The position numbers and the translations under genes were made by a program. A DNA stretch of 64,000 nucleotides. Origin: an uncultured Geobacteraceae bacterium. GTDB taxonomy: Bacteria > Desulfobacterota > Desulfuromonadia > Geobacterales > Pseudopelobacteraceae. Shown here one piece after another: positions 19,037 to 45,929 of the stretch (position 1 is its first letter; each line of letters starts with the position of its first letter). The notes under the pieces are model-generated. The model saw only the letters and a list, made by a program, of their open reading frames with translations, did no database searches and had not been told where the DNA came from. The DNA lies in NCBI GenBank assembly GCA_903901875.1, contig CAIUSO010000045.1, positions 40,930-104,929 on the forward strand, read 5' to 3'.

Positions 19037-19702
19037 ATGAACATCGACGGGTTATACGAAATAATCGATATGGATCTGTGGAATAGCCCGGTGGCTGGCC
19101 TGCCCATACCGGTTCACATCAGTATTCAGGGGAAAAAGGGGAGGGTTCATTTCACCGGTTTTGATGGTCGTATGGAGATCAGAAAGAGCGGCGACAGGTA
19201 CCTGTTCACCTGGGAGGGGCATTACGAAGGTGAACGTCCCTGCGGCTACGGAAACTTCACGGTATCCGGTGGTGCCCTGAATGGCAGAATATATATGTAC
19301 GACTGCTACGACACCTCCTTTGTGGCACGGAAAACGACTCTGGTGAAAAAACGGGCCCGGAGGATTAACCGGGAGGTGCTTGTGGTGACCGCCCGACAGC
19401 CGTTCAAGGAGTGGGCCGAGTCTCTGTCCAGCTGGAATGGCAACCTGGGGGGGGATGTGACGGTCTATCGTTCGGTTTATCTGGTCCCGATCCTGGAGAA
19501 CGCTCAGCAGCGGGACGTGCTTCTTACCGCTCTGTACGAAGAAATCTTTACCGAACAGCTCTACAGCCGGAGCAGGAATGATGCCACCTGGCCTCTGAAC
19601 AGGACCATCGCACTCTTTAAACGGTGGTTTGATTCGGAATTTCATTCGATGGTTACGGATTTGACCGATGAGGATGCTGCTGAAATTGGCGGATACGAGT
19701 AG
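19037..19702 (+). CDS. Unrecognised protein at the start of the magnetosome cluster
   Basis: A 221-residue soluble protein. ATG 19037 follows GGAGTGGG; a TTG at 18998 extends it. The N-terminal half alternates short strands (VHISIQGKKGRVHFTGFDGR, YLFTWEGHYEGE) like a small beta-barrel. The C-terminal half is helical (YLVPILENAQQRDVLLTALY, LNRTIALFKRWFDSEFH). No membrane segment or signal peptide. It sits 30 bp before a glycine-rich membrane protein gene and is probably in the same unit. I know no magnetosome family to place it in. Confidence 0.7.
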   Translation: MNIDGLYEIIDMDLWNSPVAGLPIPVHISIQGKKGRVHFTGFDGRMEIRKSGDRYLFTWEGHYEGERPCGYGNFTVSGGALNGRIYMYDCYDTSFVARKTTLVKKRARRINREVLVVTARQPFKEWAESLSSWNGNLGGDVTVYRSVYLVPILENAQQRDVLLTALYEEIFTEQLYSRSRNDATWPLNRTIALFKRWFDSEFHSMVTDLTDEDAAEIGGYE

Positions 19703-19732
19703 AAAATTACTATAAGAGACGAGGTGGTGGGC

Positions 19733-19993
19733 ATGGCACACACAGAGGCAGCAGGGGCGAACCGGGAGCGAATCAGTTACGGTAGTACGCCGAGTGCAGG
19801 AGAGAACATCCATACGGCATGCTCGGTTTTTGGCAAGACGGTGACCGGTCTGGGGATCGGCGTGGTAACCGGCATCAGTCTGGTAGTGGTGGCCGCAGCC
19901 TCTGAAGTGGCCGTGCCGGCCATATTGTTGCTGAAAGTGCTCGGGTTTACCGGTGGTGCCTTTGGCTTTGTCAGCGGAATCAAGAAAGATTAA
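19733..19993 (+). CDS. Small glycine-rich hydrophobic protein, paralogue of 25684-25953
   Basis: An 86-residue protein with a polar N-terminus, then GLGIGVVTGISLVVVAAASE and VAVPAILLLKVLGFTGGAFG, probably two short membrane helices or a helical hairpin, ending GIKKD. The second copy at 25684 shares ENIHTAC, GKT, VVTGI, EVAVPA and the IKKD ending. Small, abundant glycine-rich membrane proteins (MamC, MamD, MamF, Mms6) control crystal size in known magnetotactic bacteria; this pair is similar in character but I cannot assign it to one of those families. ATG 19733 is chosen over a GTG at 19724. Confidence 0.65.
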   Translation: MAHTEAAGANRERISYGSTPSAGENIHTACSVFGKTVTGLGIGVVTGISLVVVAAASEVAVPAILLLKVLGFTGGAFGFVSGIKKD

Positions 19994-20133
19994 TGAGATA
20001 ATTGAATCTCGTGGTTGACACGTTTACAAAAATATGAAATAAGTTCAGTCAAGTAACTGGATTTTTACGCCTGATTAGTTTTTTTTAAATATAAAGTTAG
20101 TTGAAGAACATTTTGATATACGCGGAGGGATCT

Positions 20134-21213
20134 ATGGCTGCTCCAAAAATTATGAATGTTGGTATCGATTTCGGAAGTTCTATCAGTGTGATATCTGCCG
20201 ATAACGGTGTCCGTGCCTGTGTGCCGAGTTTTGTCGGCTTTCCGAAGGATATGATTGCCCGCAAGTTGCTCGGCAAAGAGTACCTGGTGGGTGATGATGC
20301 CATCAAGAACCGCCTTTCCTGTAATATCTTCCGTCCTCTGGAACGGGGGGTTCTCAAGTATTCGGACCATATTGATGAGAATGAAAGTGATTACCGGCAG
20401 ATTGTCTGGGTTGCCCAGATTATTTTCAATCACCTGATAAATCTGGCCACCCAGGGGAGACCACAGGATTTTATCATCCGTGCCTGTATCGGTACCCCCT
20501 CCCTTGCCAACGACAAAAACAAACAGGCACTGCTTGAACTGACCGAGTCGATGGTTGACTGTGCCCAGATAGTATCCGAGCCGTTCTCCGTTGCCTATGG
20601 CATGAATCTGTTGAGTAACACTCTTATTGTTGACATCGGCGGCGGCACCGTTGACCTCTGTCGTATGCAGGGTGTCTATCCGACTCAGGAGGATCAGCTG
20701 ACGGTCTATAAAGCGGGCGATTATATCGATAACGTATTCTTTGACCTGCTGGACGCAAAATATCCTGACGCCAATTACACCATTAATATGCTCAGAACCT
20801 TTAAGGAAGAGAACGCCACCATTTCCGATACCGACGAGAAGCTGGTGCTTACCCTTCCGGTCTGCGGCAAGCCGACTGAACTGGATTTGACCGACGAGCT
20901 CCGCCAGGCGTGCAGCTCCATCGTTCCGGAAATAGCTGACGGCATCAAATACCTGATCTCCACCCATGACCCCGAATTCCAGGAAGAGTTAAAGGGAAAT
21001 ATCGTTCTGGCCGGCGGAGGCAGCAAGATCATCGGTCTCTGCGAAGAGCTGGAAAAATATATGACCCAGTCACTTGGATATGGCAGTGTTCGCAGAGTAC
21101 CCGATCCTGTGTACGCTGGTGCCAACGGTGCCCTGTTGTACTGCAAGGATATGCCTGAGGATTTCTGGACCGAACTGAAGGAAAGCAGAGGACAAAAAAC
21201 TGCAAAAAAATAA
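20134..21213 (+). CDS. mamK: Magnetosome actin-like protein MamK
   Basis: A 359-residue actin-fold ATPase that forms the filament on which magnetosome chains are organised. Nucleotide-binding motifs are intact: phosphate 1 GIDFGSS (from Gly10), phosphate 2 DIGGGTVDL (Asp167) and adenosine motif AGGGSK (from Ala293). Sequence beyond the general actin fold is MamK-specific from memory: FPKDMIARKLLGKEYLVGDD, the QIVSEPFSVAYGMN segment, EDQLTVYKAGDYID, and the ending MPEDFWTEL. ATG 20134 follows GGAGGG; the frame also runs up to a TTG at 20101. A TTGACA lies at 20015 but lacks a good -10. The gene stands between small membrane-protein and repeat-protein genes, and other mam genes follow. Confidence 0.93.
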   Translation: MAAPKIMNVGIDFGSSISVISADNGVRACVPSFVGFPKDMIARKLLGKEYLVGDDAIKNRLSCNIFRPLERGVLKYSDHIDENESDYRQIVWVAQIIFNHLINLATQGRPQDFIIRACIGTPSLANDKNKQALLELTESMVDCAQIVSEPFSVAYGMNLLSNTLIVDIGGGTVDLCRMQGVYPTQEDQLTVYKAGDYIDNVFFDLLDAKYPDANYTINMLRTFKEENATISDTDEKLVLTLPVCGKPTELDLTDELRQACSSIVPEIADGIKYLISTHDPEFQEELKGNIVLAGGGSKIIGLCEELEKYMTQSLGYGSVRRVPDPVYAGANGALLYCKDMPEDFWTELKESRGQKTAKK

Positions 21214-21415: not shown

Positions 21416-22039
21416 ATGCGAATTAACAGTGCCATGGTGAGGAACAGCATGGAGAGCAGCTCCAGAATCCGCAACGCGATGAGCCGGATAGCCCGTGCGG
21501 GGCGTTTGGCACTTACCCGTTCGGTGACCGCTGAAACGTCGAAGATCAGCAGGGTTCTGACGGTTTTAGCCCCCGACAGCAGGGAAACGCTGAACGCCAG
21601 AATCAGACTTCTGGAGAAGAAGATTCAGAGGGTGTCAACAGCAATCGGTAAAGAATGTTCACGGCACCCGACGCTGGAGGCGGCCCTCTCATCAAAGCCG
21701 GTGAGAAGTTCCCTTGCCACCGTTAAAGAGCTGACGAAGGAACTGGAGCGGACCAGACTGCGACTGGTGCGGCGCGCAACCCGGAAAATCGAAACGGGGT
21801 GGCGGCAGCGACCCTTTGCCTCTGGGTCACGCCGGTTGGGTAGAGGGGAAAAGAAGCTTATCCGGATAACGTCACGGTTGTTCAATGTGATTAAGGCCAA
21901 AGTGTCAGAGCATCTCCCCCCGGAGAAGGGGGGCTTTGAGCAGGCGGTTCGGAGCGGAAAACGAATAATCAGAGCATTGGCCAGATTATGGCGGTCCAGG
22001 GTAGGGCCACCTACTGGGCTGAACCGGGTACACACTTAA
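21416..22039 (+). CDS. Basic coiled-coil protein sharing a repeat module with the next gene
   Basis: A 207-residue, strongly basic protein (about a fifth Arg and Lys). It contains a module also present three times in the next protein: a hydrophobic helix, a turn (LAPDSRE here, LPGEKSG there), then a long charged helix (RIRLLEKKIQRVSTAIGKE) ending with HPTLEAALSSKPVRSSLATV. A second partial module occurs near the C-terminus (LFNVIKAKVSEHLPPEKGG). No known family recognised. It lies between mamK and the large acidic repeat protein; opposite charge of the two neighbours suggests they may bind each other. Confidence 0.65.
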   Translation: MRINSAMVRNSMESSSRIRNAMSRIARAGRLALTRSVTAETSKISRVLTVLAPDSRETLNARIRLLEKKIQRVSTAIGKECSRHPTLEAALSSKPVRSSLATVKELTKELERTRLRLVRRATRKIETGWRQRPFASGSRRLGRGEKKLIRITSRLFNVIKAKVSEHLPPEKGGFEQAVRSGKRIIRALARLWRSRVGPPTGLNRVHT

Positions 22040-22078: not shown

Positions 22079-24724
22079 ATGGGAAACACTTTAATTCTGG
22101 ATACGATTTCAAAAACGTTGAATGCGGGAGGGTCAGCACTTGTATCGGCAGTTGATGCCGGCGCGTCGGCGTTTAATTGTACCATGTCGGCATTGTCGCC
22201 GGGAGAAAGAACCAAACTCGGAATCAGGATCAAAACTCTGGAGTTGAGGATTCAGTCTTTGTACGTTGACTTTGCAAAAGCCAATGCCAAATTCTCTGAC
22301 CCGGCTGCCGCATTGGAATCAAAGGCGGCAAAAGACATACTGGCGGTTATCTCGGAACTGAGTAATGAAATAACAAAGATGAAGCAGCGGGTTACCGATC
22401 TTGATAAAGCCAGGGCGGAAATGAAAACTGCCAAGGGGTCATGTTGCCTCTCTTCCAAAATATCCCGTTCAATTTCGAGTATTTTGCCGGGCGAAAAGTC
22501 AGGGTTGCAGAATAAAATCCATGCAAATGAAAAGAAAATAGAGAGTCTCTACTGCGATTTTGCTAAAGAAGCAGCCAAACATTCGGATCCTGCCGCCGTT
22601 GTCGCATCAAAGGCGGTTTTCGGTATTTACGAAAAAATTAATGGGCTCACCACTGAAAACGAAACTCTTAAGCAAAAAATAGACGATCTGGCCAAGCCTA
22701 AGGCACCTGCGGCGAAACCGGCACCTGCGAAACCGGCACCCGCAAAACCGGGTGACAAGAAAATGCCCCCTGAAGCGACCGGTGTGGCCTCGTTCTTTGT
22801 TCATGCCATCTCTGACAAGCTTTCCGGATATCTGCCGGGTGACAGATCAGGGGCAGATAAAAAAACAACGGAAACGGAAAAGAAATTACAGGCACTGTAT
22901 CTGGAAGTTGGCAAGGAAACGGCCAAATATCCTGATCCGGCCGATGCCATGGTCGCTGAACCGGTCAAAAAACTTTTTGCACAGATAGCGGCACTCAAGG
23001 CCGAGCTGGTACCTGCGAGCCCGGTAAAAGCAGAAAAGCCGGCTGTAAAACCGGTTGAGGCTGGAGCGGCGGCCGTTGCCCCGGAAGTCGTTGCACCTGC
23101 TGTTGCCGATGCACCTGCCGTAGTTGAAACAGCGGGAGAAGTTGCAGTGCCTACGGAAGTTACGGAAGTTACGGAAGTGACAACACCTGTTGATGAAACG
23201 CCACTAGAAGCTGAAGTGCCAACAGTCGCTGATGAGGTTGCAGAAGTAGCAGAAGTAGCAGAAGTTACGGAAGTGATCGCCCCCGCCGTAGAAACGGCTG
23301 TTGAAGCTGAAGTGCCAGCAGTCGCTGATGAGGTTGCAGAAGTGGTAGAAGTTACGGAAGTGGCATTGCCTGTTGATGAAACGCCAATAGTAGCTGAAGT
23401 GCCAACAGTCGCTGATGAGGTTGCAGAAGTGGTAGAAGTGGTAGAAGTGACGGAAGTTACGGAAGTTACGGAAGTTACGGAAGTTACGGAAGTTACGGAA
23501 GTGACGGAAGTGACGGAAGTGACGGAAGTGACGGAAATCGCCGAACCAATCGCAGCTGGTGCTGATGAGATTGCTGTGGCCGAAGTGGCCGACGCGATTG
23601 AAACGGTGTCCACAACAAGTGAACTGTCCGAATCGGTTTCCTTCGGAAGTATCAAGATAAACCCATTTGCTGTTTCTCTGGCCGCTGAGCTGATTGCACC
23701 GGTTAGTGAGGAAGAGCCCGTAGTGGCGGAAGTAGCAACTGAAGAAGTGGTTGTCGCACCGGTAGAAGAGCTGCAGGCGGTGGAAGTCGCCGTGCCCGTT
23801 GAAGGAACCGAAGATGCGGTGGTGCTTGAATTCCCGCCAGCGATTAATAGCGAGCCTGCCATCGCCGTGGCAGCCGATGGTGATGATGCCGTTGCGGAAA
23901 TTGTGCCCGCTGAAGAGGGAGCAACGGAAGCGGTTGCAACTGCCGAAGCAGAGGTTAGCGTGCCATCGTCGGCCTTGGAACTTCCCCCCGGCATCCCGGT
24001 ATACGATGCGGAGGAAATTGTGATGCCGTTCGTTGAAAGTGGTGCTGATACTGCCGTAGAGAGTGCCGTTGATGCGGGCTCCGTTACTGAAACAGGTGAG
24101 CAGGTTGAACCGGTGACGGTACCGGAACCGGCTGCTCAAGACGATGAGAGTGACAAGCCCCGTGAGGTCGGAAGTTTTGCCACAACCGTGAGCGATCTGA
24201 CGAGTATGCGCACCAAAAGTTATACACCATCGATTTTTCTGGGAGAAACCAGAGTAAAACGTGCCGCATACCCAAGTTCGAGCTTTTCGTCTCTTACCGA
24301 TAGGGATGAACTCCCGTCACTCCTTGCTGCTGCGGAAACCGCTGAAAAGACAGAGGAGCAGGATGCTCTTGTGATGCCGGACACAGAAGTGGCGGTGGTC
24401 GCACCGCTTGAAGAGACAGCTGCAGAAGTGACGGAAACATCTGAAGCAGAGAGCACCGTGGCTGAAGAGGCAAATGTGGAAAACAGCAGTGAAGAAGCTG
24501 CCGTTCCGGAAGAAGAAGTGCCGTTATTGATGCCTCCGGCTGTCGGGACTGACTCTGCCGACGAGATTGCATCCAACGAAGATGCTCCGGTCACCGGGGA
24601 AGAAGTGGCAGTGCAGGAAGTTGATGCTGAAGAGGGAACGCCTTCACCAATAAATACCATTGTGTTTGACAATGCGCCGTCATCACCATTTTCAAGAAAG
24701 AAAACTCCCAAAAATCGGCGATAG
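22079..24724 (+). CDS. Large acidic repeat protein beside mamK, candidate MamJ-like tether
   Basis: An 881-residue protein. Residues about 20-310 hold three copies of a helix-turn-helix module (SALSPGERTKL, SSILPGEKSGL, GYLPGDRSGA; each followed by a coiled-coil helix and a DPA-AA-S/E-K segment). Residues about 320-700 are a long low-complexity, highly acidic region rich in Glu, Val, Ala and Thr, including ten consecutive EVT units and three longer repeats built on EVP-VADEVAEV. The C-terminus has a more ordered stretch (TTVSDLTSMRTKSYTPSIFL). RBS GAAGGAGA precedes ATG 22079. In Magnetospirillum the acidic repeat protein MamJ sits next to mamK and ties magnetosomes to the filament; position and composition suggest an analogous role, but no homology to MamJ is claimed. 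Confidence 0.7.
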   Translation: MGNTLILDTISKTLNAGGSALVSAVDAGASAFNCTMSALSPGERTKLGIRIKTLELRIQSLYVDFAKANAKFSDPAAALESKAAKDILAVISELSNEITKMKQRVTDLDKARAEMKTAKGSCCLSSKISRSISSILPGEKSGLQNKIHANEKKIESLYCDFAKEAAKHSDPAAVVASKAVFGIYEKINGLTTENETLKQKIDDLAKPKAPAAKPAPAKPAPAKPGDKKMPPEATGVASFFVHAISDKLSGYLPGDRSGADKKTTETEKKLQALYLEVGKETAKYPDPADAMVAEPVKKLFAQIAALKAELVPASPVKAEKPAVKPVEAGAAAVAPEVVAPAVADAPAVVETAGEVAVPTEVTEVTEVTTPVDETPLEAEVPTVADEVAEVAEVAEVTEVIAPAVETAVEAEVPAVADEVAEVVEVTEVALPVDETPIVAEVPTVADEVAEVVEVVEVTEVTEVTEVTEVTEVTEVTEVTEVTEVTEIAEPIAAGADEIAVAEVADAIETVSTTSELSESVSFGSIKINPFAVSLAAELIAPVSEEEPVVAEVATEEVVVAPVEELQAVEVAVPVEGTEDAVVLEFPPAINSEPAIAVAADGDDAVAEIVPAEEGATEAVATAEAEVSVPSSALELPPGIPVYDAEEIVMPFVESGADTAVESAVDAGSVTETGEQVEPVTVPEPAAQDDESDKPREVGSFATTVSDLTSMRTKSYTPSIFLGETRVKRAAYPSSSFSSLTDRDELPSLLAAAETAEKTEEQDALVMPDTEVAVVAPLEETAAEVTETSEAESTVAEEANVENSSEEAAVPEEEVPLLMPPAVGTDSADEIASNEDAPVTGEEVAVQEVDAEEGTPSPINTIVFDNAPSSPFSRKKTPKNRR
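23444..23533. repeat. Ten 9-bp tandem repeats coding for (EVT)10
   Basis: Ten consecutive units of GAAGT(T/G)ACG, in frame within the acidic repeat protein gene. The first unit ends GTGACG, the next five GTTACG, the last four GTGACG, a pattern that suggests blockwise expansion. Copy-number change would alter protein length without breaking the frame. Confidence 0.9.
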
Positions 24725-24873
24725 TCTGAGTCGCCCGGAAAACGGGGGAGCCGATATAATGTATTGTCTTGATGTCGGTACGGTCCTATTGTAGAGTGGG
24801 TGAAGAGTTATCGGAAAGTACCACCGGTCAGTAAGGACACGGGTAGGCCAAAACGTAGTGGAGTATGTATTAC

Positions 24874-25644
24874 ATGGATACAGTGCAGGCGAAAAAAGCC
24901 AGATTGCTCAAGGAGATGGGTGAGCGGGAACAGCATTTAAAAAGCGGTCGTCTGGTGGTTGAGTCGTCGTTGGACGTGGTTTTTGCGGTGGATACCACCG
25001 GAAGTATGGAATCTTATATCCATGAGGTGCGGGACAATATCCTCAAAATCATGGAAGATGTCTTTGAATTCACCCAAGGGGTGAGGATGGGTGTCATTGC
25101 CTATAAGGATCATGGTGATGAAGGGGAGAACGAATTTTATCTCACCAAAATTCTCCCTCTAACCTTTGACAAAAAAGAAATAGTGGAGTTTCTCCGTTCA
25201 CCGGACCTGCATATCGGGGTCGGTGGAGACGGTGCCGAAGCGGTGGAATGCGCCTTGTACGACGCAGCTAACCTTAACTGGGGACTGTCAAAAACACCGA
25301 AGGCCATTGTGCTGGTTGGTGACAAGCCGGCCCACGGCGTTATTGACAGCTTCCGTGCCTGTCCGCGAATGAAGGATTATCGGCAAGAGGTTGAGGTTAT
25401 CAAAAGCAAGGGAATCAAGATCTATCCGATTCTCTGCAATAATATTCACGAGACCGAATCCAGCTTTCGCTGGATGGCCAGTGAAACAGACGGTACCTTC
25501 ATCTATCTGGACGACATCACCAGTCTGAGCGATATTCTGACCGGTATATGTCTGAAAGAAACGGGTAAGCTTCTGGAATACAAGAGTAAGCTGCTTGAAT
25601 ACGGCGATAAGGTCCGGTTGGAGCATATTGTACTGCTGAACTGA
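24874..25644 (+). CDS. Von Willebrand factor type A domain protein
   Basis: A cytosolic protein of 256 residues made almost entirely of one VWA domain. The metal-ion-dependent adhesion site is intact: DTTGSM (Asp-x-Ser-x-Ser type, here DTTGS), the later threonine/aspartate positions in GDGAEAVE, and the VLVGDKPAHG strand. Such domains bind protein partners through Mg2+. ATG 24874 is chosen because GGAG lies 10 bp upstream; an ATG at 24865 is too close to it. A weak promoter-like pair (TTGTCT, 17 bp, TATTGT) lies at 24764-24792. Its role in the magnetosome cluster is unknown; it may connect membrane and scaffold proteins. Confidence 0.75.
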   Translation: MDTVQAKKARLLKEMGEREQHLKSGRLVVESSLDVVFAVDTTGSMESYIHEVRDNILKIMEDVFEFTQGVRMGVIAYKDHGDEGENEFYLTKILPLTFDKKEIVEFLRSPDLHIGVGGDGAEAVECALYDAANLNWGLSKTPKAIVLVGDKPAHGVIDSFRACPRMKDYRQEVEVIKSKGIKIYPILCNNIHETESSFRWMASETDGTFIYLDDITSLSDILTGICLKETGKLLEYKSKLLEYGDKVRLEHIVLLN

Positions 25645-25683
25645 TACAGAGTGGAACTAAACATACAAGAGAAGGAGGCGCCA

Positions 25684-25953
25684 GTGGATTCTTCAGCTGA
25701 CACCAAAGCAACGGAAAGTGGACGTATCGATATCAGTAGCTATTACCCCTCCCGGACCGAGGAAAATATTCATACCGCCTGTGCCATACTGGGCAAGACC
25801 GCCGCAGGACTTGGCGTCGGTGTGGTCACCGGTATTGGACTTGTTGTCGCCGCAGCGGCTGCCGAGGTTGCTGTGCCGGCGGTTCTGGTGCTGAAGGCCT
25901 TCGGTTTGACCGGGGGCGCACTCGGCTTTTTAACCGGTATTAAGAAGGATTAG
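25684..25953 (+). CDS. Small glycine-rich hydrophobic protein, paralogue of 19733-19993
   Basis: An 89-residue protein; GTG 25684 follows an ideal RBS (GAAGGAGG at 25671-25678). After a polar N-terminus come ENIHTACAILGKTAAGLG, GVVTGIGLVVAAAAAEVAVP and AVLVLKAFGLTGGALGFLTG, ending GIKKD. The close relation to the protein at 19733 shows a duplication within the cluster. It is followed by the mamL-like gene. A magnetosome-membrane protein affecting crystal growth is a reasonable guess only. Confidence 0.7.
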   Translation: MDSSADTKATESGRIDISSYYPSRTEENIHTACAILGKTAAGLGVGVVTGIGLVVAAAAAEVAVPAVLVLKAFGLTGGALGFLTGIKKD

Positions 25954-25968: not shown

Positions 25969-26205
25969 ATGCAAAAAAAGCTTATATTCTTCTCCATAGT
26001 TACGCTGCTTCTGCTCGCCGTTCTCTTCCTTGACGGGAACAGCAGTCCGGTGCCGGTCAAGTTTATACTTGGCGAGCCGAAGCCGGTGGTGCTCAGTACG
26101 GTTGTCGTGGTCAGCGTCTGTGTGGGGGTGTTGCTGGCGGTGGTGGTGATGCTTTCGTTCAAGGCACTGCGCAAACCGAAAAAGGTTCCCCAGCTGGTCG
26201 AGTAA
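25969..26205 (+). CDS. mamL: MamL-like small membrane protein (LapA-type fold)
   Basis: A 78-residue protein with two membrane helices: KLIFFSIVTLLLLAVLFLDG, then a short loop (SPVPVKFILGEPKP), then VVLSTVVVVSVCVGVLLAVV, and a basic tail (FKALRKPKKVP). The two-helix layout with a V/F-rich loop matches the LapA domain and MamL of Magnetospirillum, also 78 residues as I recall, which is required for magnetosome membrane formation and has a positively charged tail. It lies 15 bp after the glycine-rich protein gene. The identification rests on layout as much as sequence. Confidence 0.6.
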   Translation: MQKKLIFFSIVTLLLLAVLFLDGNSSPVPVKFILGEPKPVVLSTVVVVSVCVGVLLAVVVMLSFKALRKPKKVPQLVE

Positions 26206-26266: not shown

Positions 26267-26641
26267 GTGGCAATTGATGTGAGATATGGTTTATTGCACA
26301 TGGGCGATTTATTTATGGATTTAGTCCATAAAACCGCCGATTCTGCAACTATCTGCTCCAAAAGACTTTTTTTGGCATACGATATTACGTCGCTTACCTG
26401 TAAAAAAGATCAGGTCTCCCGGAAAATCGGGGAGCGGGTTACCGTTCTGGTAAATGGCGGAACGACGGACCTGACCACCGATACCACACTGGCCGGGTAC
26501 ATCGCCCGTCTCAATGAAATCGAAGCGGCAATAGCAGCCCATGAACAAGAGAAAAATAATCTGGTAAACCCGTTTAACGTACCGAAAACAGCATGTGATA
26601 GAACAAATAATGGATCTGAAAAAGGGGAGAACAATGAGTAA
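26267..26641 (+). CDS. Unrecognised 124-residue protein
   Basis: GTG start with AAAGGGGA upstream. The product has a mildly hydrophobic helical N-terminus (GLLHMGDLFMDLVHKTADSA), a conserved-looking segment CKKDQVSRKIGERVTVLVNG, and a helix EIEAAIAAHEQEKNNLV before a polar tail. No membrane segment is certain. The stop overlaps the next start by 8 bp, so the two are translated together. No family recognised. Confidence 0.6.
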   Translation: MAIDVRYGLLHMGDLFMDLVHKTADSATICSKRLFLAYDITSLTCKKDQVSRKIGERVTVLVNGGTTDLTTDTTLAGYIARLNEIEAAIAAHEQEKNNLVNPFNVPKTACDRTNNGSEKGENNE

Positions 26642-26816
26642 AGTCCTAATTGGAGTCTTTTCAGGTATTTTCTTGGGAGCGGTCATCTATGAGCTCATTA
26701 ACCGCACCAACCCGGAGCTGATCCGGAAAGTTGAAGAATTCGCCTGCAGCAAGGTTGACGATCTCTGTGGTCTGAACGAAGAGAACCCTGCATACAAGGC
26801 CCATGAAGCAGCTTAA
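26634..26816 (+). CDS. Small single-span membrane protein
   Basis: A 60-residue protein; ATG 26634 follows AAAGGGGAG. It has one membrane helix (VLIGVFSGIFLGAVIYELIN) and a soluble tail with two cysteines (FACSKVDDLCGLNEENPAY). It overlaps the preceding gene by 8 bp and mamP by 14 bp, so it is firmly within the operon. Size and topology resemble small accessory magnetosome proteins, but I recognise no family. Confidence 0.6.
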   Translation: MSKVLIGVFSGIFLGAVIYELINRTNPELIRKVEEFACSKVDDLCGLNEENPAYKAHEAA

Positions 26817-37864: not shown

Positions 37865-38293
37865 GTGGATCAAAGTAAAAGAAAATTTATCAGCATCTGT
37901 CTTGGCGGCATTGCCGCGCTGGCCGTTACCGGCATCACTGCGGTGGTCTACCCGGTGTTCCGTTACTACCTGGTACCCAGTCCTGACGGTGGTGGCAAGG
38001 GGAAAGCCACCATACCGGTGAAGGACATCCTGCCGGGAGATGCGAAATTTTTTGAATACAACGGCACTGCGGCCGTACTGGTGAAAAAACAGGATGGCAC
38101 GATGATTGCGCTGTCAGCCGTCTGCCCCCACCTCGGCTGTATCGTGCAGTGGGAAAAGGATCGGCAGGATTTTCTCTGCCCCTGTCATGCCGGCTATTTC
38201 ACCGCAGATGGTGCCGTGGTCTCCGGTCCCCCTCCACGTGCTTTGGAAAAAATTCCTTTTACGGTGGCTAATGGGGTCGTAACGGTTGGCTAA
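37865..38293 (+). CDS. Rieske iron-sulfur protein of a cytochrome bc-type complex
   Basis: A 142-residue Rieske protein with an N-terminal membrane or Tat-like anchor (SKRKFISICLGGIAALAVTG). Both cluster-binding boxes are complete: CPHLGC (Cys87, His89, Cys92) and CPCHAG (Cys105, Cys107, His108), with Cys87/His89 and Cys105/His108 as 2Fe-2S ligands and Cys92/Cys107 as the disulfide. GTG start 13 bp after the TauE gene. It forms a three-gene module with cytochrome b and a pentahaem cytochrome c, which together would oxidise menaquinol. The location inside a magnetosome cluster is unusual. Confidence 0.9.
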   Translation: MDQSKRKFISICLGGIAALAVTGITAVVYPVFRYYLVPSPDGGGKGKATIPVKDILPGDAKFFEYNGTAAVLVKKQDGTMIALSAVCPHLGCIVQWEKDRQDFLCPCHAGYFTADGAVVSGPPPRALEKIPFTVANGVVTVG

Positions 38294-38334: not shown

Positions 38335-39438
38335 ATGGATTTTTTGAAACAACTATATGACTGGGTTGATGTCCGATTCGGTGTGCGTGAAGTCGTCGAC
38401 GAAAAGCGGTCCGGCCATCTGCTCCCCCCCAATATTAATGCCTGGTACTCCCTGGGGAGTGTGCTGCTGGTAATATTCTGCCTGCAGATCGTAACCGGCC
38501 TGCTGTTGATGCTCTACTACGTGCCGGATATTGACAAAGCCTTTGGCAGCGTGGCGTTTATCATGGAGGAGATCCCCCTTGGCCGGTTGATCCGACTGTT
38601 CCATGCGGTGGGATCGAGCATGATGCTGCTGGTTATCCTGCTGCACATGTTTTCCGTCCTCTTTATGGGGAGTTATAAGGCCCCCCGTGAACTCCACTGG
38701 CTCACCGGTTTCTTTCTGCTGCTTCTGGCCATGGGAATTTCCCTGACCGGTTACCTGCTCCCCTGGAATCAGCTCTCCTTCTGGGCTACCACGGTGGCAA
38801 CCGACTGCGTCAGCTCGATTCCCTTCGTCGGTTCGGATCTGGTTGAGCTGCTCCGTGGCGGGAAACAGGTTGGCTTCCACACTCTGGGGCGTTTCTATAC
38901 TCTCCACGTGGGGCTGCTGCCGGCGTCCATTGTCGTCATGATCGGCACACACCTTTTCCTGATCAGAAGAACCGGTGTCTCCACACCCCCCTTTGGTCTT
39001 GAGGACACCACTAATCAGTGGCAGGGGGACAAATTTGTCTGCAAAGATCATCCGGATGGTATTCCGTTCTTCCCCAATTTTGTACTTCAGGACCTGATAT
39101 CCATTTCGCTCTATCTGGCCTGTCTCATGATGTTTGTCTTTTTCTTTCCGAACCTGTTTATCCCTTCAACATCATATATGCCGGCGAACCCTTTGGTAAC
39201 GCCCTCCCATATCAAGCCGGAGTGGTACTTTCTGGCAAATTACCAGACGTTGAAGCTGTTTCCCAGTGAGATAGTCGGGTTGACGGTACAGGCCATTGCC
39301 ATGACTTTTCTGGCCCTGTTACCCTTCATTGATCGGGGTACGGAGAAGCACCCCCTGAAGCGTCCGACATTCACCTTGACCGCTATTGGCTGCATCCTGC
39401 TCTGGATCGGCCTGACTATATGGGGACTGTATTCATGA
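38335..39438 (+). CDS. Cytochrome b of a bc-type quinol oxidoreductase
   Basis: A 367-residue cytochrome b with N- and C-terminal halves fused in one chain (eight helices). The four haem ligands are visible as His pairs: FHAVGSSMMLLVILLHMF and YTLHVGLLPASIVVMIGTHL. The quinol-site motif PEWY lies in HIKPEWYFLANYQ. The protein would oxidise menaquinol and pass electrons to the Rieske protein and the attached cytochrome c. Its stop overlaps the ATG of the cytochrome c gene (ATGA), confirming one transcription unit. Confidence 0.93.
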   Translation: MDFLKQLYDWVDVRFGVREVVDEKRSGHLLPPNINAWYSLGSVLLVIFCLQIVTGLLLMLYYVPDIDKAFGSVAFIMEEIPLGRLIRLFHAVGSSMMLLVILLHMFSVLFMGSYKAPRELHWLTGFFLLLLAMGISLTGYLLPWNQLSFWATTVATDCVSSIPFVGSDLVELLRGGKQVGFHTLGRFYTLHVGLLPASIVVMIGTHLFLIRRTGVSTPPFGLEDTTNQWQGDKFVCKDHPDGIPFFPNFVLQDLISISLYLACLMMFVFFFPNLFIPSTSYMPANPLVTPSHIKPEWYFLANYQTLKLFPSEIVGLTVQAIAMTFLALLPFIDRGTEKHPLKRPTFTLTAIGCILLWIGLTIWGLYS

Positions 39439-40211
39439 AACAGTTGCTCTTCGCTTTTTTACTGGTTCTTTCCCTGCTTTCGGCTCCGCCGGCTACTGCT
39501 GCCGTTCGTCCCGTCGATGTCTGTGTTACCTGCCACGGAGCACTGTCTGCACGCCTGGGAATGCCGGCTAAGCTCTGGAAGGCGAGTATCCATGCCGAAC
39601 ATGGTGTGTCCTGTAATGCCTGCCATGGCGGAGATCCCATGGATGGGGCCAACTCCATGAGCCCGGCGAGGGGATTCCGCGGGGTGCCGATAGCAACGGA
39701 AATCCCGACCATTTGTGGCGGGTGCCATATGGGGATTGCCAAGTACAATGCGGCGAGTCCACATGGGAAAGCACTGGGGAGGGGTGGCCCCACCTGCGTC
39801 ACCTGTCATGGCAGCCATGGCGTCGTCAAGGCTACCATTGATCAGATCAACCGGAAAAACTGTACCCCCTGCCATGGCTTTGAAAGTGCATGGGAGATCA
39901 GAAATGCCATGCTGAAGACCGATGGCATGCTGAAAGCCATAGAAGATCGTATTATTGAACTGAAAAATCAGGGGATACTGACCGATACGTTGGAGAAGCG
40001 GCTGTTCGCATTGCGGAATCAATCACACTCGCTGTTCCACACCCTGAATATCGACCTGATTCGCCAGGAATCGGCCCATCTTCAGGCCGAACTGGAAAAA
40101 AATAACGGCATTGGTAATACCGGTACCGGGCTTTCAATTGGTGCCCTTGCCGTGGGGTGGGCCCTCCTCGCCGCACTGCTGTTCTATCTGATCAAAAAAA
40201 ATATTGATTAG
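39435..40211 (+). CDS. Pentahaem cytochrome c with C-terminal membrane anchor
   Basis: A 258-residue exported cytochrome. A cleavable signal peptide (LLFAFLLVLSLLSAPPATAA) is followed by five CxxCH sites: CVTCH (Cys30), CNACH, CGGCH, CVTCH and CTPCH, with extra histidines suited to bis-His haems. A helical region (residues about 150-215) and a C-terminal membrane helix (LSIGALAVGWALLAALLFYL) anchor it. It takes the place of cytochrome c1 in the bc module, as multihaem cytochromes do in Desulfuromonadota. ATG 39435 overlaps the cytochrome b stop. Confidence 0.9.
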   Translation: MKQLLFAFLLVLSLLSAPPATAAVRPVDVCVTCHGALSARLGMPAKLWKASIHAEHGVSCNACHGGDPMDGANSMSPARGFRGVPIATEIPTICGGCHMGIAKYNAASPHGKALGRGGPTCVTCHGSHGVVKATIDQINRKNCTPCHGFESAWEIRNAMLKTDGMLKAIEDRIIELKNQGILTDTLEKRLFALRNQSHSLFHTLNIDLIRQESAHLQAELEKNNGIGNTGTGLSIGALAVGWALLAALLFYLIKKNID

Positions 40212-40310: not shown

Positions 40311-40550
40311 ATGCAACCAGTACATTGCCCGAATGTAATCACGGTAGCTGGACAAAAAACAGGCCAGGGAGTCGGTTTTAAGGCGGCAACATGCTGTAAG
40401 ACCATGGGAACCGGTTTGGGTGCGAAAGGAGTGGGACTCGGTCTGGGACTCGGTCTCGGCTTCGGAGTGTGGGGCCCCGTCGGTCTGATCGGTCTTGGAA
40501 TCGTTGGAGGCTATTATTACTGGAAAAAAGCATCGGAGATGCTTGATTGA
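40311..40550 (+). CDS. LG-repeat magnetosome protein of the Mms6/MamG/MamD kind
   Basis: A 79-residue protein. The centre GLGAKGVGLGLGLGLGFGVW followed by GPVGLIGLGIVGGYYYWKK strongly recalls the Leu-Gly repeat and following membrane helix of Mms6, MamG and MamD, which sit in the magnetosome membrane and govern crystal size and shape. Two adjacent cysteines (TCCKTMG) precede the repeat. The acidic C-terminal iron-binding tail of Mms6 is missing (the protein ends ASEMLD), so it is closer to the short MamG form. RBS AAAGGAG before ATG 40311. Confidence 0.6.
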   Translation: MQPVHCPNVITVAGQKTGQGVGFKAATCCKTMGTGLGAKGVGLGLGLGLGFGVWGPVGLIGLGIVGGYYYWKKASEMLD

Positions 40551-40580: not shown

Positions 40581-41930
40581 GTGGCGAAGAAAAACAAGGC
40601 CAAGAGTAGGAGCGTAAATAGCCCGCACCCAAAACAGGTTCTGGATGCTGTGTCGGTGAATGGTACCGCCGTGGTTATGGATGGTGCGCTTCAGGCAGCA
40701 GAAGAGGAACCGGTTGGGGACGTGACCGCTCTGGCGATTGATGAAGCCGACATTGGTGAAGATACCGATGTGATTGTGCCCCTGGCTGATGGTGCTTCAC
40801 TACTCGAAGAAGCTGTCGTTGAAGAGGTCATTGCGGAATCCCCCCAGGAACCGGTGAGTGTTGAAGTCGGCGAGCCGATGCCGGTTGAAGTGCCGGTTGT
40901 TACAGAGAAACGGAGGGGGCGGAAGAGTCTGGTTGAACGCCTGATTCTGGCCGGAATTGTCGAGGCACCCCACGGGGAGATCGGGGCAGGAGACATACCA
41001 GCTGTCGAGGTGGAAGTGCCGGTGGCAGAGGAACCGATAGCAGTGGAACCGGTAGCAGAGGAACCGGTGGTAGTGGAACCGGTAGCAGAGGAACCGGTAG
41101 CAGAGGAACCGGTAGCAGCGGAACCGGTAGCAGCGGAACCGGTAACAGAGGAACCGGTAGCAGAGGTGCCGGTTGCAGAGGCCTCGCTCTCTGCACCTGC
41201 GGATGAAGCAATGACCGCTGATGCAGAGGACGCTCCGGTAACTGTCGCGGAAACCGTAGAGCCGGCTCAGATGGTTGTTCAGGTTCCGGTGGAAATAGTG
41301 GAAGTCGAGGAACTCTTGCCGGTCGTTTCGGCTCCTGCTCCGGTTGACGGCGTGACGGACGTGGCACAATGCAACGACGAGGATCTGCTGGTTGCCGATG
41401 GGAATCATGGGGTGGAGGAAGCAGAGACGGCTGAAGAGACCGTCGACAGTAAAGAATCGCTGTCAGGGGAAATCGTTCAGAGTATGAAGGCCCAGGCGGT
41501 GCAGGAAGTGCGTGATGTTCTGCAGGAACTTGAAAGTAAACATTATAATATTACCGAGGGAATGGCCACTGCGGTCGGGGCAGGGACAGGTGCTGCCGGA
41601 TCCATTGCCGCTCTTTCATCACTTGGCGCGGTTTCCGGGTTGTCATCGGCCGGCGTCTCGTCCGGTCTTGCCGCTGCCGGTGCATTAATCGGTGGGGGGA
41701 CACTGGTGGGACTTGGTGTCATTGTGGCTCCCGTCGCAGCATTGGGGGTGCTCGGATATCGGCTTGCCCACAAAATAAAAGAATCAAGAAGAAGTGTGGA
41801 TTTGGGAGCTGCCGTCAAAAAAATCTGTGAGATCCAGTTGCGACTCAACCGGCATAGGGAACAGTTCAGGGAAGAATTGTCGCTTATTGATACCACCCTG
41901 GATGTGCTTCTCCGCGTGAAGACGAAGTAA
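40581..41930 (+). CDS. Acidic repeat protein with C-terminal glycine-zipper membrane segment
   Basis: A 449-residue protein. Residues about 20-290 are acidic and low in complexity, with eleven 5-residue units of the (E)PVAEE type at about 146-200. The C-terminal third is ordered: a helix (MKAQAVQEVRDVLQELESKH), a long Gly/Ala/Ser-rich hydrophobic part (AAGSIAALSSLGAVSGLSSA, LIGGGTLVGLGVIVAPVAAL) and a basic coiled coil (RLNRHREQFREELSLIDTTL). GTG start with GGGAGG upstream. The arrangement fits a membrane-bound protein with a long acidic arm, possibly binding iron or mineral surfaces, or acting as spacer. No family recognised. Confidence 0.65.
   Translation: MAKKNKAKSRSVNSPHPKQVLDAVSVNGTAVVMDGALQAAEEEPVGDVTALAIDEADIGEDTDVIVPLADGASLLEEAVVEEVIAESPQEPVSVEVGEPMPVEVPVVTEKRRGRKSLVERLILAGIVEAPHGEIGAGDIPAVEVEVPVAEEPIAVEPVAEEPVVVEPVAEEPVAEEPVAAEPVAAEPVTEEPVAEVPVAEASLSAPADEAMTADAEDAPVTVAETVEPAQMVVQVPVEIVEVEELLPVVSAPAPVDGVTDVAQCNDEDLLVADGNHGVEEAETAEETVDSKESLSGEIVQSMKAQAVQEVRDVLQELESKHYNITEGMATAVGAGTGAAGSIAALSSLGAVSGLSSAGVSSGLAAAGALIGGGTLVGLGVIVAPVAALGVLGYRLAHKIKESRRSVDLGAAVKKICEIQLRLNRHREQFREELSLIDTTLDVLLRVKTK
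41016..41180. repeat. Eleven 15-bp tandem repeats coding for (E/V)PVAE units
   Basis: Eleven consecutive 15-bp units based on GAACCGGTAGCAGAG within the acidic repeat protein gene, in frame, with a few substitutions each. Likely subject to copy-number change. Confidence 0.9.
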
Positions 41931-42016: not shown

Positions 42017-42319
42017 ATGTTTAAATCAACAATAATCAAACGTTTCGTTAACTCTAAAATTGAGAGGTATGGGTATATGCTTAAGCTTGATATCAATTCG
42101 GGAGACAAAACCATCGATCTTGAAGTGTTACTGCGGGGAGAAAGTGCCCCTCTGAAGGTGCATGTGGGGCGGTACGAGGTTATCGGAGGGGCGGAAAGCG
42201 GCATTAAGATCGGCCAGATAACGACCTCACGGGAGTGGATCACCGAGGTGATAAACGCACTGGCCCCCGAACACACGGTAAAGTTCAACCATGCCGGCCT
42301 GCTGAAGATGATCCTGTAG
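42017..42319 (+). CDS. Unrecognised 100-residue protein
   Basis: Small soluble protein with an amphipathic N-terminus (TIIKRFVNSKIERYGYMLKL), alternating strands (DKTIDLEVLLRGESAPLKVH, YEVIGG) and a helical end (TSREWITEVINALAP). ATG 42017 has AAGG upstream. It is convergent with the next, reverse-strand gene, with stops 2 bp apart. No family recognised. Confidence 0.55.
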   Translation: MFKSTIIKRFVNSKIERYGYMLKLDINSGDKTIDLEVLLRGESAPLKVHVGRYEVIGGAESGIKIGQITTSREWITEVINALAPEHTVKFNHAGLLKMIL

Positions 42320-43152: not shown

Positions 43153-43311
43153 GTCACGAAAATTACCTGAACAGAATCAGTGCGATTAGGAAATTGCACG
43201 GCGAAAAACTCTGCCTTATCCCCTGAGGGCGAATCGTGGCCTCAAGCAAAAAACCAACCGGACAACGCTGGCACAGAATAGCTTTTCCGGTCCCCGCTGG
43301 CAAGAACAAAT

Positions 43312-43974
43312 CTAAACCCGTACCCCGTAGATATCGGCCGCGATATCCTGCTCCAGGGCTATCTGGGTATTCTCGATCTGAATGACATAGGCGGGGAATT
43401 TCTGGCGTATTTTGAGAACCTTGCCCGGAGACACCCCGAATGACACCAGTTTGCCGATAAGTACCGGATCATCCTTTCTGATAAAGGAGACCCGAACCGA
43501 ATCCCCCACATCCAAGGCGTTCAGCGGCTTTACAAAGGATTCAACGGAGCTTTCCGACCGTTTGCAGCACTCCCCCTCAGGTATGGGTGAACCGTGGGGA
43601 CATTCACGGGGGTGTCCAAGCAGCGTACAGATGGCCTCGGTGAGGCCGGGAGCCAAGGTGTGCTCATATTCACAGGCCGACTCTTCTATGGCATCAAAGG
43701 GCATGCCAAGCACGTCAACCAGCATCCGCTCCGCCAGGCGGTGGCGGCGAATGATCGGCAGTGCGTAGGCCCTGCCGCTGGCGGTCAAAGAAACGCTACT
43801 GCCGGTGAAGCAGATGAGCCCTTTGTGGGCCAAATCTGACAAAACTGCGTCATCAACACGATAGGACGCCTCGCTATGCTCTTTCTTTATGCCTTCCGCC
43901 GTACAGGCCCCCATCTCCTCAAATCTCCAGACGGTTTCAAGGACCTCATCGGTAACATGCTCGATATTCTTCAT
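43312..43974 (-). CDS. DtxR/MntR-family metal-dependent regulator with FeoA-like domain
   Basis: A 220-residue repressor. The N-terminal winged helix (TDEVLETVWRFEEMGACTAE) is followed by a dimerisation and metal-binding domain with the family pattern ESACEYEHTLAPGLTEAICT, then LGHPRECPHGSPIP, and a C-terminal SH3-like FeoA domain (NALDVGDSVRVSFIRK, KLVSFGVSPGKVLKIRQK). It probably senses Fe(II) (or Mn) and controls the adjacent feoB. ATG 43974 has AAGGG upstream. It starts 14 bp after the feoB stop, so feoB and regulator are one transcript; no free-standing feoA is present. Confidence 0.88.
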   Translation of the reverse strand: MKNIEHVTDEVLETVWRFEEMGACTAEGIKKEHSEASYRVDDAVLSDLAHKGLICFTGSSVSLTASGRAYALPIIRRHRLAERMLVDVLGMPFDAIEESACEYEHTLAPGLTEAICTLLGHPRECPHGSPIPEGECCKRSESSVESFVKPLNALDVGDSVRVSFIRKDDPVLIGKLVSFGVSPGKVLKIRQKFPAYVIQIENTQIALEQDIAADIYGVRV

Positions 43975-43988
43975 GGTGATACCCTTTC

Positions 43989-45929
43989 TTAAAAAGTAAT
44001 GGTGACCCAACTGAGGACGTTGTTTAGTATGCCCCCGGTCAATACGGCACAGGTCGTAACCGCAACAATAATGGCAAGGGCCTTCTGGGCACCCTGCTCT
44101 TTGATGATAAGCATGAAATTAGTGACACAGGGGATAAAGAGAATCGTGACCACCATGGCCACAACCAGCTGTGTATGGTTCATGACTCCGCTGTCCACCA
44201 TTTTTTTCAGGATGGCAACGCCGGCTTCACCCCGGATGAAGCCCATGATCAGTGATTCGGCGAATTGGGGGGGGAGGCCAAGAAAACCTCTGATAATGGG
44301 GGCTGAAAGACGCTCTATGACAGAAAGCAGACCGATTTTATCGGCTAAAAACAGGCCAAGTGCGCTGATAATGAAGAGTGGTACCGCCTCCTGAAGAAAC
44401 AGCAGAGAACGGTAGGAGGTCTTTGCCAGGACGTTTTTCAAGCTGGGTATGCGTATGGGGGGAACTTCCATGATGAAATTGGATGACTCCGTCGGCATGA
44501 TTTTGTTGAGGATGATGCCGGTCAGTATGGTCAAGGAGAAGACAACACCGAAGACGACCAGAAAACCGTTAAAGGAAATTTGCGTCAGAATGGCCAAAAT
44601 GACGCTCAATTTGGCAGAGCAGGGAATGCCGAGTGACAGAAGGAAGATGGCAATAAAACGTTCCCTTTTGCTGTCCAGCACCCTGGTGGAAATGGTGGCC
44701 ATGGTAACGCAGGAAAAGCCGAGTACCATGGGGAGTACGGCCTTGCCGTTGAGGCCGATTTTTCTGAAAATACGGTCAAGCAGGATGGAAAGGCGGGGTA
44801 TGTAGCCTGAATCCTCGATGAAACCGAAGGTGAAAAAGAACATGGTCAGGATCGGCAGGAGCAGGCCGAAGACCGGAACAACCGCCATGGTGTAGAGTCC
44901 GTACTCACCGGTAATCAGTTCCCTTACGAAGGCGTACGGGATAACTGCAACCGCGTTTTTCAGGTGAGGTCCGATCATGTCCCCAAAGAAGTCGTTGAGG
45001 AGGAAATCGACGACAATGCCGGCGGCGAACTTTCCGACGATGAAATAGAGCAGGGCGATGAGGGCCACCAGTATGAGAGAACCGGTGATTGGTGTGAGTG
45101 CCAGGTCTCCGATCCGGTTCAGGAGCGGGGTGGAGGAAATGGGACTCAGCGTGACCGTTTGCGCGTAAACCGCTTCGGCCCACAGGTCATGGGCACGGGC
45201 TACCACCAGGCCCAGGGGGCGGTGGAAGGTCCGGGACGTGCTGACAATAAGTTCCGTGACGGAGGTGTCCTGATGCAGAGCCAGCTTTGTCCGGGCCCAC
45301 ATCGACGTGGGGTGGTCTCCGGCCATGGCAAGGATGGCCAGTATCCGTCTATTCCGTTCAGAACAGAGCTCGGTGGTGATAGACTCTTCCAGTTTACTGA
45401 CGGCAGCGGTAAGTGTCGCCGGTAGCCTGGTGGGGAAGCGGGGAGCAACGCCCTTGCCGAGCGCAGTGACCAGGGTCGGTACACCGACACCCTCAGAAGC
45501 GATGATCTCGATGACCGGTGTTCCCAGCAGCTCCTCAAGTTTGTGCCGATTGACCGTAATTCCCTTTTGTGCCGCCTCGTCCACCATATTGATCGCACAT
45601 AGGAGCGGTATCTGCAAGTCAGCCAGCAGGGACGTCAGCTGAAGGGAACGATTGACATTTTTTGCATCGAAGACCTGGACTACCAGCTCCGGTGCCTCTT
45701 CCACAAGGATACATTTGGCAACTCTCTCGTTATCCTCATTAAACAGCAGGTTGCAGACGCCGGGGGTGTCAATTATCTCAACATCCTCACCATCAACTTT
45801 CAGGATTCCCCTTCTCACTTCAACGGAGGAGCCGGGATATGACCCGCTGCTGACCCGGTTGGTTATCAAACGGTTAAACAGAGTGCTTTTACCCACATTC
45901 GGCAAGCCAATCAACAATATCTTCTTCAC
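43989..45929 (-). CDS. feoB: Ferrous iron transporter FeoB
   Basis: A 646-residue inner-membrane Fe(II) transporter. The N-terminal G domain has G1 GLPNVGKS, G3 DTPG and G4 NMVD. The membrane part contains the paired GATE motifs (FGFIEDSGYIPR, LPMVLGFSCV; GFIRGEAGVAIL). The TTG at 45938 overlaps the RBS (GAAGGA), so GTG 45929, 9 bp from it, is the likely start. FeoB homologues are regular parts of magnetosome clusters, where they supply iron for the crystal. The DtxR-type regulator follows in the same operon. Confidence 0.93.
   Translation of the reverse strand: MKKILLIGLPNVGKSTLFNRLITNRVSSGSYPGSSVEVRRGILKVDGEDVEIIDTPGVCNLLFNEDNERVAKCILVEEAPELVVQVFDAKNVNRSLQLTSLLADLQIPLLCAINMVDEAAQKGITVNRHKLEELLGTPVIEIIASEGVGVPTLVTALGKGVAPRFPTRLPATLTAAVSKLEESITTELCSERNRRILAILAMAGDHPTSMWARTKLALHQDTSVTELIVSTSRTFHRPLGLVVARAHDLWAEAVYAQTVTLSPISSTPLLNRIGDLALTPITGSLILVALIALLYFIVGKFAAGIVVDFLLNDFFGDMIGPHLKNAVAVIPYAFVRELITGEYGLYTMAVVPVFGLLLPILTMFFFTFGFIEDSGYIPRLSILLDRIFRKIGLNGKAVLPMVLGFSCVTMATISTRVLDSKRERFIAIFLLSLGIPCSAKLSVILAILTQISFNGFLVVFGVVFSLTILTGIILNKIMPTESSNFIMEVPPIRIPSLKNVLAKTSYRSLLFLQEAVPLFIISALGLFLADKIGLLSVIERLSAPIIRGFLGLPPQFAESLIMGFIRGEAGVAILKKMVDSGVMNHTQLVVAMVVTILFIPCVTNFMLIIKEQGAQKALAIIVAVTTCAVLTGGILNNVLSWVTITF

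Follow-up and report, generated by a model that had tools for sequence, protein, structure and literature searches.

The window analyzed here, 64,000 nucleotides of contig CAIUSO010000045.1 from an uncultured Geobacteraceae bacterium, contains a magnetosome gene cluster (MGC) that spans positions 18998 to 45938, from a first open reading frame (ORF) at 18998 to the end of feoB. Inside the cluster lies an operon (37865 to 40211) that follows a TauE-type transporter gene and encodes, in order, a Rieske protein, a cytochrome b, and a pentahaem c-type cytochrome, after which comes an LG-repeat (MamD-like) gene. Our preferred interpretation, to which we assign a probability of about 0.55, is that this is a man/mad-type MGC predicted to produce magnetite in vesicles, and that its operon would link the menaquinone pool to the haems of MamP and MamE, in this way probably controlling the ratio of Fe(II) to Fe(III) in the crystal. 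All positions are window coordinates, and ORFs, profile matches, and RNA features were recomputed over the whole window.

The operon is intact and stands in a conserved place. Its Rieske and cytochrome b genes are adjacent, and the PEWY motif, the CPHLG/CPCHA motifs, and all five CXXCH motifs are retained. We compared it among the eight MGC carriers of the window's genus, which are the window's own genome (G000), two published metagenome-assembled genomes (MAGs), MAG_13126_9_058 (G016) and MAG_21600_9_004 (G017), and G038, G042, G044, G045, and G046. Seven of the eight (G000, G042, G016, G038, G044, G045, and G046) have the operon between TauE and the LG-repeat gene, with one extra ORF after TauE in G016 and G044. 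In the eighth, G017, the cluster contig stops within mamQ, and neither a cluster-type TauE nor, at E 1e-60, a cytochrome b match turned up in the assembly; this stretch therefore seems to be unassembled and not a site free of the operon. The operon also follows TauE in MAG_22309 (G076), a member of the Desulfobulbales. Between G000 and G042, the ratio of nonsynonymous to synonymous divergence (omega) was 0.030 to 0.081 for the operon genes.

The operon was apparently copied from the respiratory machinery of the bacterium's own order, Geobacterales. Solved-structure relatives of the cytochrome b are bc and b6f cytochromes b. For the pentahaem cytochrome, the sole solved-structure matches were designed "Pizza" proteins without a passing stretch, which we discarded as spurious. 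Away from the cluster, G016 and G044 contain a separate operon paralogous to it, with the same Rieske, cytochrome b, and cytochrome c genes; because both genomes keep this separate operon, the MGC copy is an addition there. Many family members possess the cytochrome b of the separate operon. Among the matches listed, cytochromes b from outside the cluster were 61 to 68% identical to that of the window in the family, 60 to 66% in the order except for G292 (53%), and 52 to 57% in the rest of the class, and those in Nitrospirota-type genomes were only 24 to 41% identical. Cytochromes b from MGCs, from a second island described below, and from MAG_22309 formed one clade (support 100/100) on a stem of 0.46 to 0.47, and a further branch with 100/100 support puts this clade on the same side as the order. 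The best tree nests the clade within the order, which is the favored arrangement, but the approximately unbiased test does not reject a placement outside the order (p-AU, 0.27). Because the operon cytochrome b lies on that side, the MAG_22309 cluster most likely came from the side of the window's order. MAG_22309, which is incomplete, gave no match to GlnE, a protein that all six class members tested possess (53 to 70%), and this fits a place outside the class.

A second candidate redox protein is Mad2, encoded between mamB and mamA, which is likely a haem protein and is predicted to be a dihaem b-type electron carrier. An AlphaFold2 model of Mad2 is a four-helix bundle (mean pLDDT 83.6) with one histidine pair, H52/H66, in the helix at residues 39 to 69 and another, H111/H128, in the helix at residues 103 to 130. 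The dihaem cytochrome b core has two histidine pairs, located in helices 2 and 4. All four histidines are kept by 52 of 69 full-length Mad2 homologs, and also in the three Nitrospirota rows tested. Fourteen of the 69 keep H52 and lose both H66 and H128, with 13 of these losing H111 too, and three have a single change or gap; in the paralog mad2c, three histidines are lost together. One homolog (P0170, 158 aa) has a magnetochrome at its C terminus, similar to the last part of MamP, and could be a fusion of Mad2 with a magnetochrome or a rearrangement of neighboring mad2 and mamP. A Mad2 profile search of solved structures returned nothing at E 1, and naming the family by fold match was abandoned because only generic helical bundles came out on top. 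According to the part of PMC9840458 available, bullet-shaped magnetite cannot form without Mad2, and the redox proteins listed there do not include it.

The genome also encodes a second magnetochrome pair on contig C111, in an island at approximately 7.1 to 33.5 kb (L005, L094). The island begins with mad2b, mamB2, mamM2, two unknown but conserved proteins, a CZB-domain protein, mamP2, rieske2, and mad2c, and after a gap of approximately 15 kb, which in our reading holds an efflux-type set and signaling genes, continues with cytochrome b2, mamE2 (two CXXCH motifs, GSSGGP intact), and mamI2. Second mamP loci, which have island-specific genes in common, occur in six of the eight carriers (G000, G042, G038, G044, G045, and G046), and none was found in G016 or G017. 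A weak match on contig C40 of G017 was considered as a decayed second island and rejected, as there were no homologs.

In gene trees (SH-aLRT support), the copies of mamP2 are next to the clade of mamP1 (66 and 89), those of mamB2 next to mamB1 (87 and 79), and mad2 of the island type next to that of the main type (91 and 88); for these three genes, the split is therefore older than the sampled members of the genus. Cytochrome b2, by contrast, clusters with the main copy of G044 (85/85 and 95/79), and mamM2, mamA2, and rieske2 fall among the main copies without resolution. The gene trees thus do not agree on a single duplication date for the whole island. Synonymous divergence (dS) between G000 and G042 was 0.24 to 0.40 for eight island genes, 0.38 to 1.09 for the main cluster, and 0.51 to 0.85 for flanking genes, with 0.59 for a permease at the start of C111. 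The lower dS of the island suggests that it was exchanged later between the two lineages. Omega for the island genes was 0.02 to 0.18. In G046, contigs C17 and C25 (L031/L080 and L062/L120) hold two more mamP-bearing pieces besides the main cluster; on C25, mamP and cytochrome b are split across frames and are thus broken copies.

Taken together, these genes allow a mechanism to be proposed. Judging from their families, FeoB would bring Fe(II) into the cell, MamB and MamM would load it into the vesicle, MamI, MamQ, MamA, and MamE would shape and mature the vesicle, and MamK would align the chain. Menaquinol would be oxidized at the Qo site of the cytochrome b, and electrons would pass through the Rieske protein and the pentahaem cytochrome c to the magnetochromes. 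Mad2 may offer electrons an additional route through the vesicle membrane, by way of its predicted b haems. From the second island would come further MamP, MamE, MamM, and MamB along with another Rieske and cytochrome b, which may be used when redox conditions differ.

Several observations weigh against this interpretation. The direction of electron flow is a choice on our part, and the magnetite role of the operon is a prediction from sequence. In addition, such clusters do not in general require the operon, since G004, an MGC carrier from a sister genus in the same family, is without it in both cluster and genome. The G004 cluster (L201, contig C78, 1 to 9.6 kb) runs mamI, mamE, mamQ, WD40, coiled-coil, TauE, ORF, feoB, and feoA. 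Its TauE is 74% identical to that of the window, the single ORF between TauE and feoB/feoA is coiled-coil-like, and we found neither the operon nor an LG-repeat match in the cluster and no such cytochrome b in the genome. The Nitrospirota stretches examined, many of which end near TauE, show no Rieske or cytochrome b gene. Cytochrome b matches in G000 comprise the MGC copy, the second-island copy, and a distant one (36%); with no housekeeping copy in this genome, plain respiration may be all that the MGC operon serves here. In G042, only a 121-aa fragment of cytochrome b2 is present, and the G046 copy is broken. Finally, the Mad2 fold search was topped by generic four-helix bundles, with no Foldseek match under E 0.001.

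It is possible, if on balance doubtful, that the operon is an ordinary respiratory one that adjoins the mam genes but is unrelated to magnetite. This would be in keeping with the lack of a housekeeping cytochrome b of this family in G000, G042, and G045, and would fit its being a paralog of an operon whose cytochrome b occurs in many members of the family and order, as well as a related cluster in G004 that does without it. Yet the place between mamO-Cter (the TauE gene) and the LG-repeat gene is kept in all seven genus MGCs that span it, the operon follows TauE in MAG_22309 too, the cytochromes b of MGCs form a clade of their own on a long stem with copies also in second islands, and G016 and G044 have both kinds of operon. 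The operon-free cluster of G004 cuts both ways and does not shift the balance between the two readings. A bolder proposal, which we regard as unlikely, is that the magnetosome membrane of this genus is a respiratory membrane in which a dedicated bc complex and dihaem Mad2 move electrons between the menaquinone pool and the growing magnetite, such that the crystal would be both compass and electron store. On this view, a respiratory operon of the same order would have given rise to the bc module in a single recruitment event, later than the divergence from G004, that placed it between TauE and feoAB. A copy would then have entered a second magnetosome island, and the module would have reached a Desulfobulbales lineage along with the cluster, which would give the direction of that transfer.

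Other explanations concern the cluster as a whole. Some nonmagnetotactic bacteria have been reported to carry silent or decaying MGCs, and the patchy presence of the cluster (8 of 39 genus genomes) would be in keeping with such a state. We consider this improbable here, as the core frames are open, at least 17 listed MGC genes are under purifying selection between G000 and G042 (omega, 0.015 to 0.133), and flagellins are present (five Flagellin_N matches over the cut-off in G000 when flagellar motility genes were tested). There is only a very slight chance that a binning or assembly error brought an MGC from a different organism into a Geobacter-like MAG. The assembly consists of 169 contigs and sister species without an MGC are common, but the cluster is joined on one contig to glnE and panE, as it also is in another MAG, G042, where these genes are arranged alike and glnE is 92% identical, and seven other genomes of the genus carry the cluster.

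That the window holds an MGC had been proposed in a first-pass annotation made from the sequence letters, and this observation is confirmed. The interpretation as a cluster predicted to build magnetosomes is supported by model matches together with conserved gene order. All eight genes named at that stage (mamK, mamP, mamM, mamB, mamA, mamI, mamE, and mamQ) were recovered by profile search. Only MamK and MamM exceed curated NCBIfam cut-offs, and the others were called because of model matches combined with conserved order. These eight are also the members found together of a nine-gene MGC set used in PMC7449369, whose ninth gene, mamO, is present only as mamO-Cter. The refuting outcome named in advance, best matches in ordinary MreB, HtrA, CDF (cation diffusion facilitator), or LemA families, was not found for MamK, MamM, MamP, MamA, or MamI. 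It was nearer for others: MamB matches the MamB model best with MamM close behind, mamE scores higher with generic DegP/HtrA (304) than with the MamE model (235), and the two MamQ genes score well under the cut-off; all of these sit in conserved order. A phylogenetic check, which had been suggested, was made with a concatenated tree of 25 clusters, described below.

Details of the first-pass annotation fared variously. Paired magnetochrome sites in MamP and MamE held for MamP, with two Pfam domains over the cut-off; MamE has one CXXCH rather than a pair and no match to the Pfam magnetochrome model at E 0.01. The probable mamL is probably the ORF at 25969 to 26205, which does not match the MamL model and has a LapA domain below the cut-off (E 2.1e-5). 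The LG-repeat, TauE, and feoB genes were correctly recognized, with TauE matching the C-terminal part of the MamO model. The absence of a mamO protease is right in that no second HtrA-type protease occurs among the cluster ORFs listed, though mamO-Cter is present. Also borne out were glnE as a flanking gene, the absence of flanking tRNA genes, and a gene set unlike that of Magnetospirillum, since the cluster is of the known man/mad type. The start given as 19037 is an internal ATG of the ORF beginning at 18998, and the earlier list did not include mad2, mad31, the operon, or the second island. Magnetotactic members of this group had been called rarely described, which is fair, but MGCs of this very genus were published in 2020 (PMC7449369).

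By gene order, the cluster belongs to the "man-containing" MGC type of Uzun et al. 2022 (PMC9376291). Read backwards, the window follows the order reported there for LBB01 ("Ca. Magnetomonas plexicatena") from mamO-Cter, the name given in that study to the TauE-type place, to mamK, including mad2 and mad31. Because of this match we use the names mad2, mad31, and mamQ-2; the man names (man2, man3, and man4-6) are assigned by position only. The von Willebrand A (vWA) gene and two long ORFs are extras between mamK and mamP relative to LBB01, and the ORFs at 25969 and 26267, at the man2/man3 positions, are conserved to Nitrospirota loci. The order mamK...mamP, mamM, mad31, mamQ-2, mamB, mad2, mamA, mamI, mamE, mamQ, man4-6 position, mamO-Cter is shared with Nitrospirota man clusters ("Ca. 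Magnetomonas plexicatena" LBB01, "Ca. Magnetominusculus," and "Ca. Magnetobacterium"; PMC9376291). Beyond mamO-Cter, LBB01 continues with mad23-26, whereas the window has the bc-type operon and the LG-repeat gene.

Our scan of named genomes returned 46 loci, in Geobacteraceae/Desulfuromonadales MAGs, MAG_22309, Nitrospirota, Nitrospinota, Planctomycetes/Phycisphaerae, Magnetococcales, and SAR324, along with one unnamed bacterium and one Clostridium PDZ protein. In the concatenated tree, the window falls in a clade of the eight genus clusters, joined first by MAG_22309, next by G004, and after that by Nitrospirota clusters. Of 76 family genomes, 9 have magnetochrome domains that exceed the Pfam cut-off, and the same nine are the only ones among 277 class genomes; they comprise 8 of 39 genomes of the window's genus plus G004. 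MGC presence requires five changes on a glnE tree of 37 genus genomes, and therefore repeated loss or gain. The MGCs of G016 and G017 were assigned to Pelobacteraceae UBA8499 (PMC7449369), and these two of the three genomes MAG_13126, MAG_21600, and MAG_21601 lie in the window's genus. As far as the available texts go, the class names of MAG_22309 and of those three appear swapped between PMC9376291 and PMC7449369.

The chromosomal place of the cluster varies. It stands beside glnE/panE in G000 and G042, has other flanks in G016, and is not at glnE in G017, G038, G044, or G046, whose glnE neighborhoods show no cluster genes except generic tetratricopeptide repeat (TPR) matches. A homolog of the 139-aa ORF at 17488 to 17907 remains near the cluster edge in G000, G042, G016, G017, G038, and G046 while the other flanking genes differ, which points to relocation of the cluster. 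No clean empty site at glnE was seen: the glnE neighborhoods retrieved from relatives show only weak kinase-type matches to the window's right-flank genes. The cluster tree rejects a G044+G045 clade (log-likelihood difference, 208), which the 37-row glnE tree recovers (97/94), yet glnE limited to the eight carriers rejects neither arrangement (p-AU, 0.20 and 0.40), leaving cluster transfer between species of the genus as a possibility only.

MGCs of this kind are known, the genus being that of the two published MGC-bearing MAGs (PMC7449369). G016 and G017 share the window's mam/mad order from mamP on, with 65 to 85% identity for mamK, mamP, mamM, mamB, mamA, and mamE, but they are other species with the cluster in another chromosomal place and lack a detected second mamP island; mamK precedes vWA in the window and follows it in G016. 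Compared with bc1/b6f quinol:cytochrome c oxidoreductases, the operon has the full-length cytochrome b with PEWY and the Rieske motifs, but it encodes a pentahaem cytochrome c instead of cytochrome c1/f and resides in an MGC. Partial second mam sets away from the main cluster are also known, as in the magnetosome islet of AMB-1. Duplicated clusters of this form are described in Alphaproteobacteria (PMC6819731), a different lineage; the set described here adds a Rieske/cytochrome b pair, a CZB-domain protein, and two unknown proteins.

What goes beyond print, as far as we found, is the operon in the MGC, the second mamP locus, and the histidine pattern of Mad2. The literature searched, with subscription papers and supplements mostly outside the search, names no Rieske or cytochrome b gene in an MGC, no second island in this genus, no haem in Mad2, and no cluster-encoded electron partner of magnetochromes. 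The candidate partner proposed here is encoded by the cluster itself, is conserved, and evolves under purifying selection, and the sister genus has a cluster without it. The operon marks a cluster transfer between distant lineages, and thus bears on the spread of MGCs in the Thermodesulfobacteriota group, described as "not entirely clear" (PMC9376291). The same data reveal that most carriers in one genus have retained a second magnetosome island, and yield a haem prediction for a protein known for its effect on crystal shape.

Table 1. Features of the main magnetosome gene cluster and its left edge (scores in bits where stated)
Feature	Position	Strand	Remarks
139-aa ORF, small, conserved	17488..17907	-	Near left edge; no Pfam match
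234-aa ORF	18998..19702	+	Homologs adjoin mamK in G042, G046, G017, G038 MGCs
mamK, actin-like magnetosome filament	20101..21213	+	NCBIfam MamK 415 bits, cut-off 400
207-aa basic ORF	21416..22039	+	No Pfam/NCBIfam match at E 0.01; homolog (49%) in G042 only
881-aa acidic TEV-repeat/coiled-coil protein	22079..24724	+	Homologs in genus MGCs
vWA domain protein	24865..25644	+	82-97% conserved in genus MGCs; also G004, L038, L055
100-aa hydrophobic ORF	25651..25953	+	Kept beside vWA/mamK
78-aa protein, candidate mamL-like	25969..26205	+	Two hydrophobic stretches, LapA-like domain; man2/mad10/man3 stretch
124-aa ORF between mamK and mamP	26267..26641	+	Conserved to Nitrospirota; man2/mad10/man3 stretch by position only
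mamP, PDZ + two magnetochromes	26803..27804	+	NCBIfam MamP 219 bits, cut-off 300; two Pfam magnetochrome domains
mamM, CDF iron transporter	27786..28712	+	NCBIfam MamM 374 bits, cut-off 350
mad31	28709..29398	+	By position and conservation
mamQ-2, LemA type	29374..29931	+	MamQ 44, cut-off 250
mamB, CDF iron transporter	29949..30821	+	MamB 233 bits, MamM 222 bits, cut-off 350
mad2, four-helix membrane protein, four conserved histidines	30818..31240	+	Likely start ATG 30845
mamA, TPR protein	31293..31934	+	MamA 143, cut-off 200
mamI	31999..32232	+	MamI 64, cut-off 80
mamE, HtrA protease, two PDZ, one CXXCH, GSSGGP serine motif	32242..34245	+	MamE 235, cut-off 800
mamQ, LemA type	34252..34953	+	MamQ 84, cut-off 250
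WD40-like propeller protein	34950..36059	+	man4-6 position, by position only
293-aa coiled-coil protein	36071..36952	+	man4-6 position, by position only
TauE/SafE transporter, mamO-Cter	36949..37851	+	MamO profile 538-647, E 2.3e-12
Rieske [2Fe-2S] protein	37865..38293	+	Motifs CPHLG/CPCHA
Cytochrome b, full-length	38335..39438	+	PEWY motif
Pentahaem c-type cytochrome	39420..40211	+	Five CXXCH
LG-repeat protein, MamD/Mms6-like	40311..40550	+	NCBIfam MamD E 3.2e-9, below cut-off
449-aa acidic/repeat protein	40581..41930	+	Homologs in genus MGCs
100-aa ORF	42017..42319	+	Conserved in genus MGCs and G004
DtxR-type metal-binding + FeoA domain protein (mad30-like)	43312..44010	-	Pair with feoB also follows MGC in G016, G004
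feoB, Fe(II) uptake (mad17-like)	43989..45938	-	TIGR00437 over cut-off

Cluster genes up to 42319 are all on the plus strand, and are followed on the minus strand by an ORF at 42322 to 43152 and the DtxR-FeoA/feoB pair. Directly beyond feoB, positions 46129 to 55877 encode a ParA-type ATPase, a 695-aa protein containing a helix-turn-helix, and two large multidomain signaling proteins with receivers, PAS domains, and a histidine kinase; when the window was compared with the other cluster stretches, no counterpart of parA or of the gene for the 695-aa protein turned up in them. A tRNA search of the window found none, and its sole Rfam match is a small signal recognition particle RNA at 63892 to 63990.

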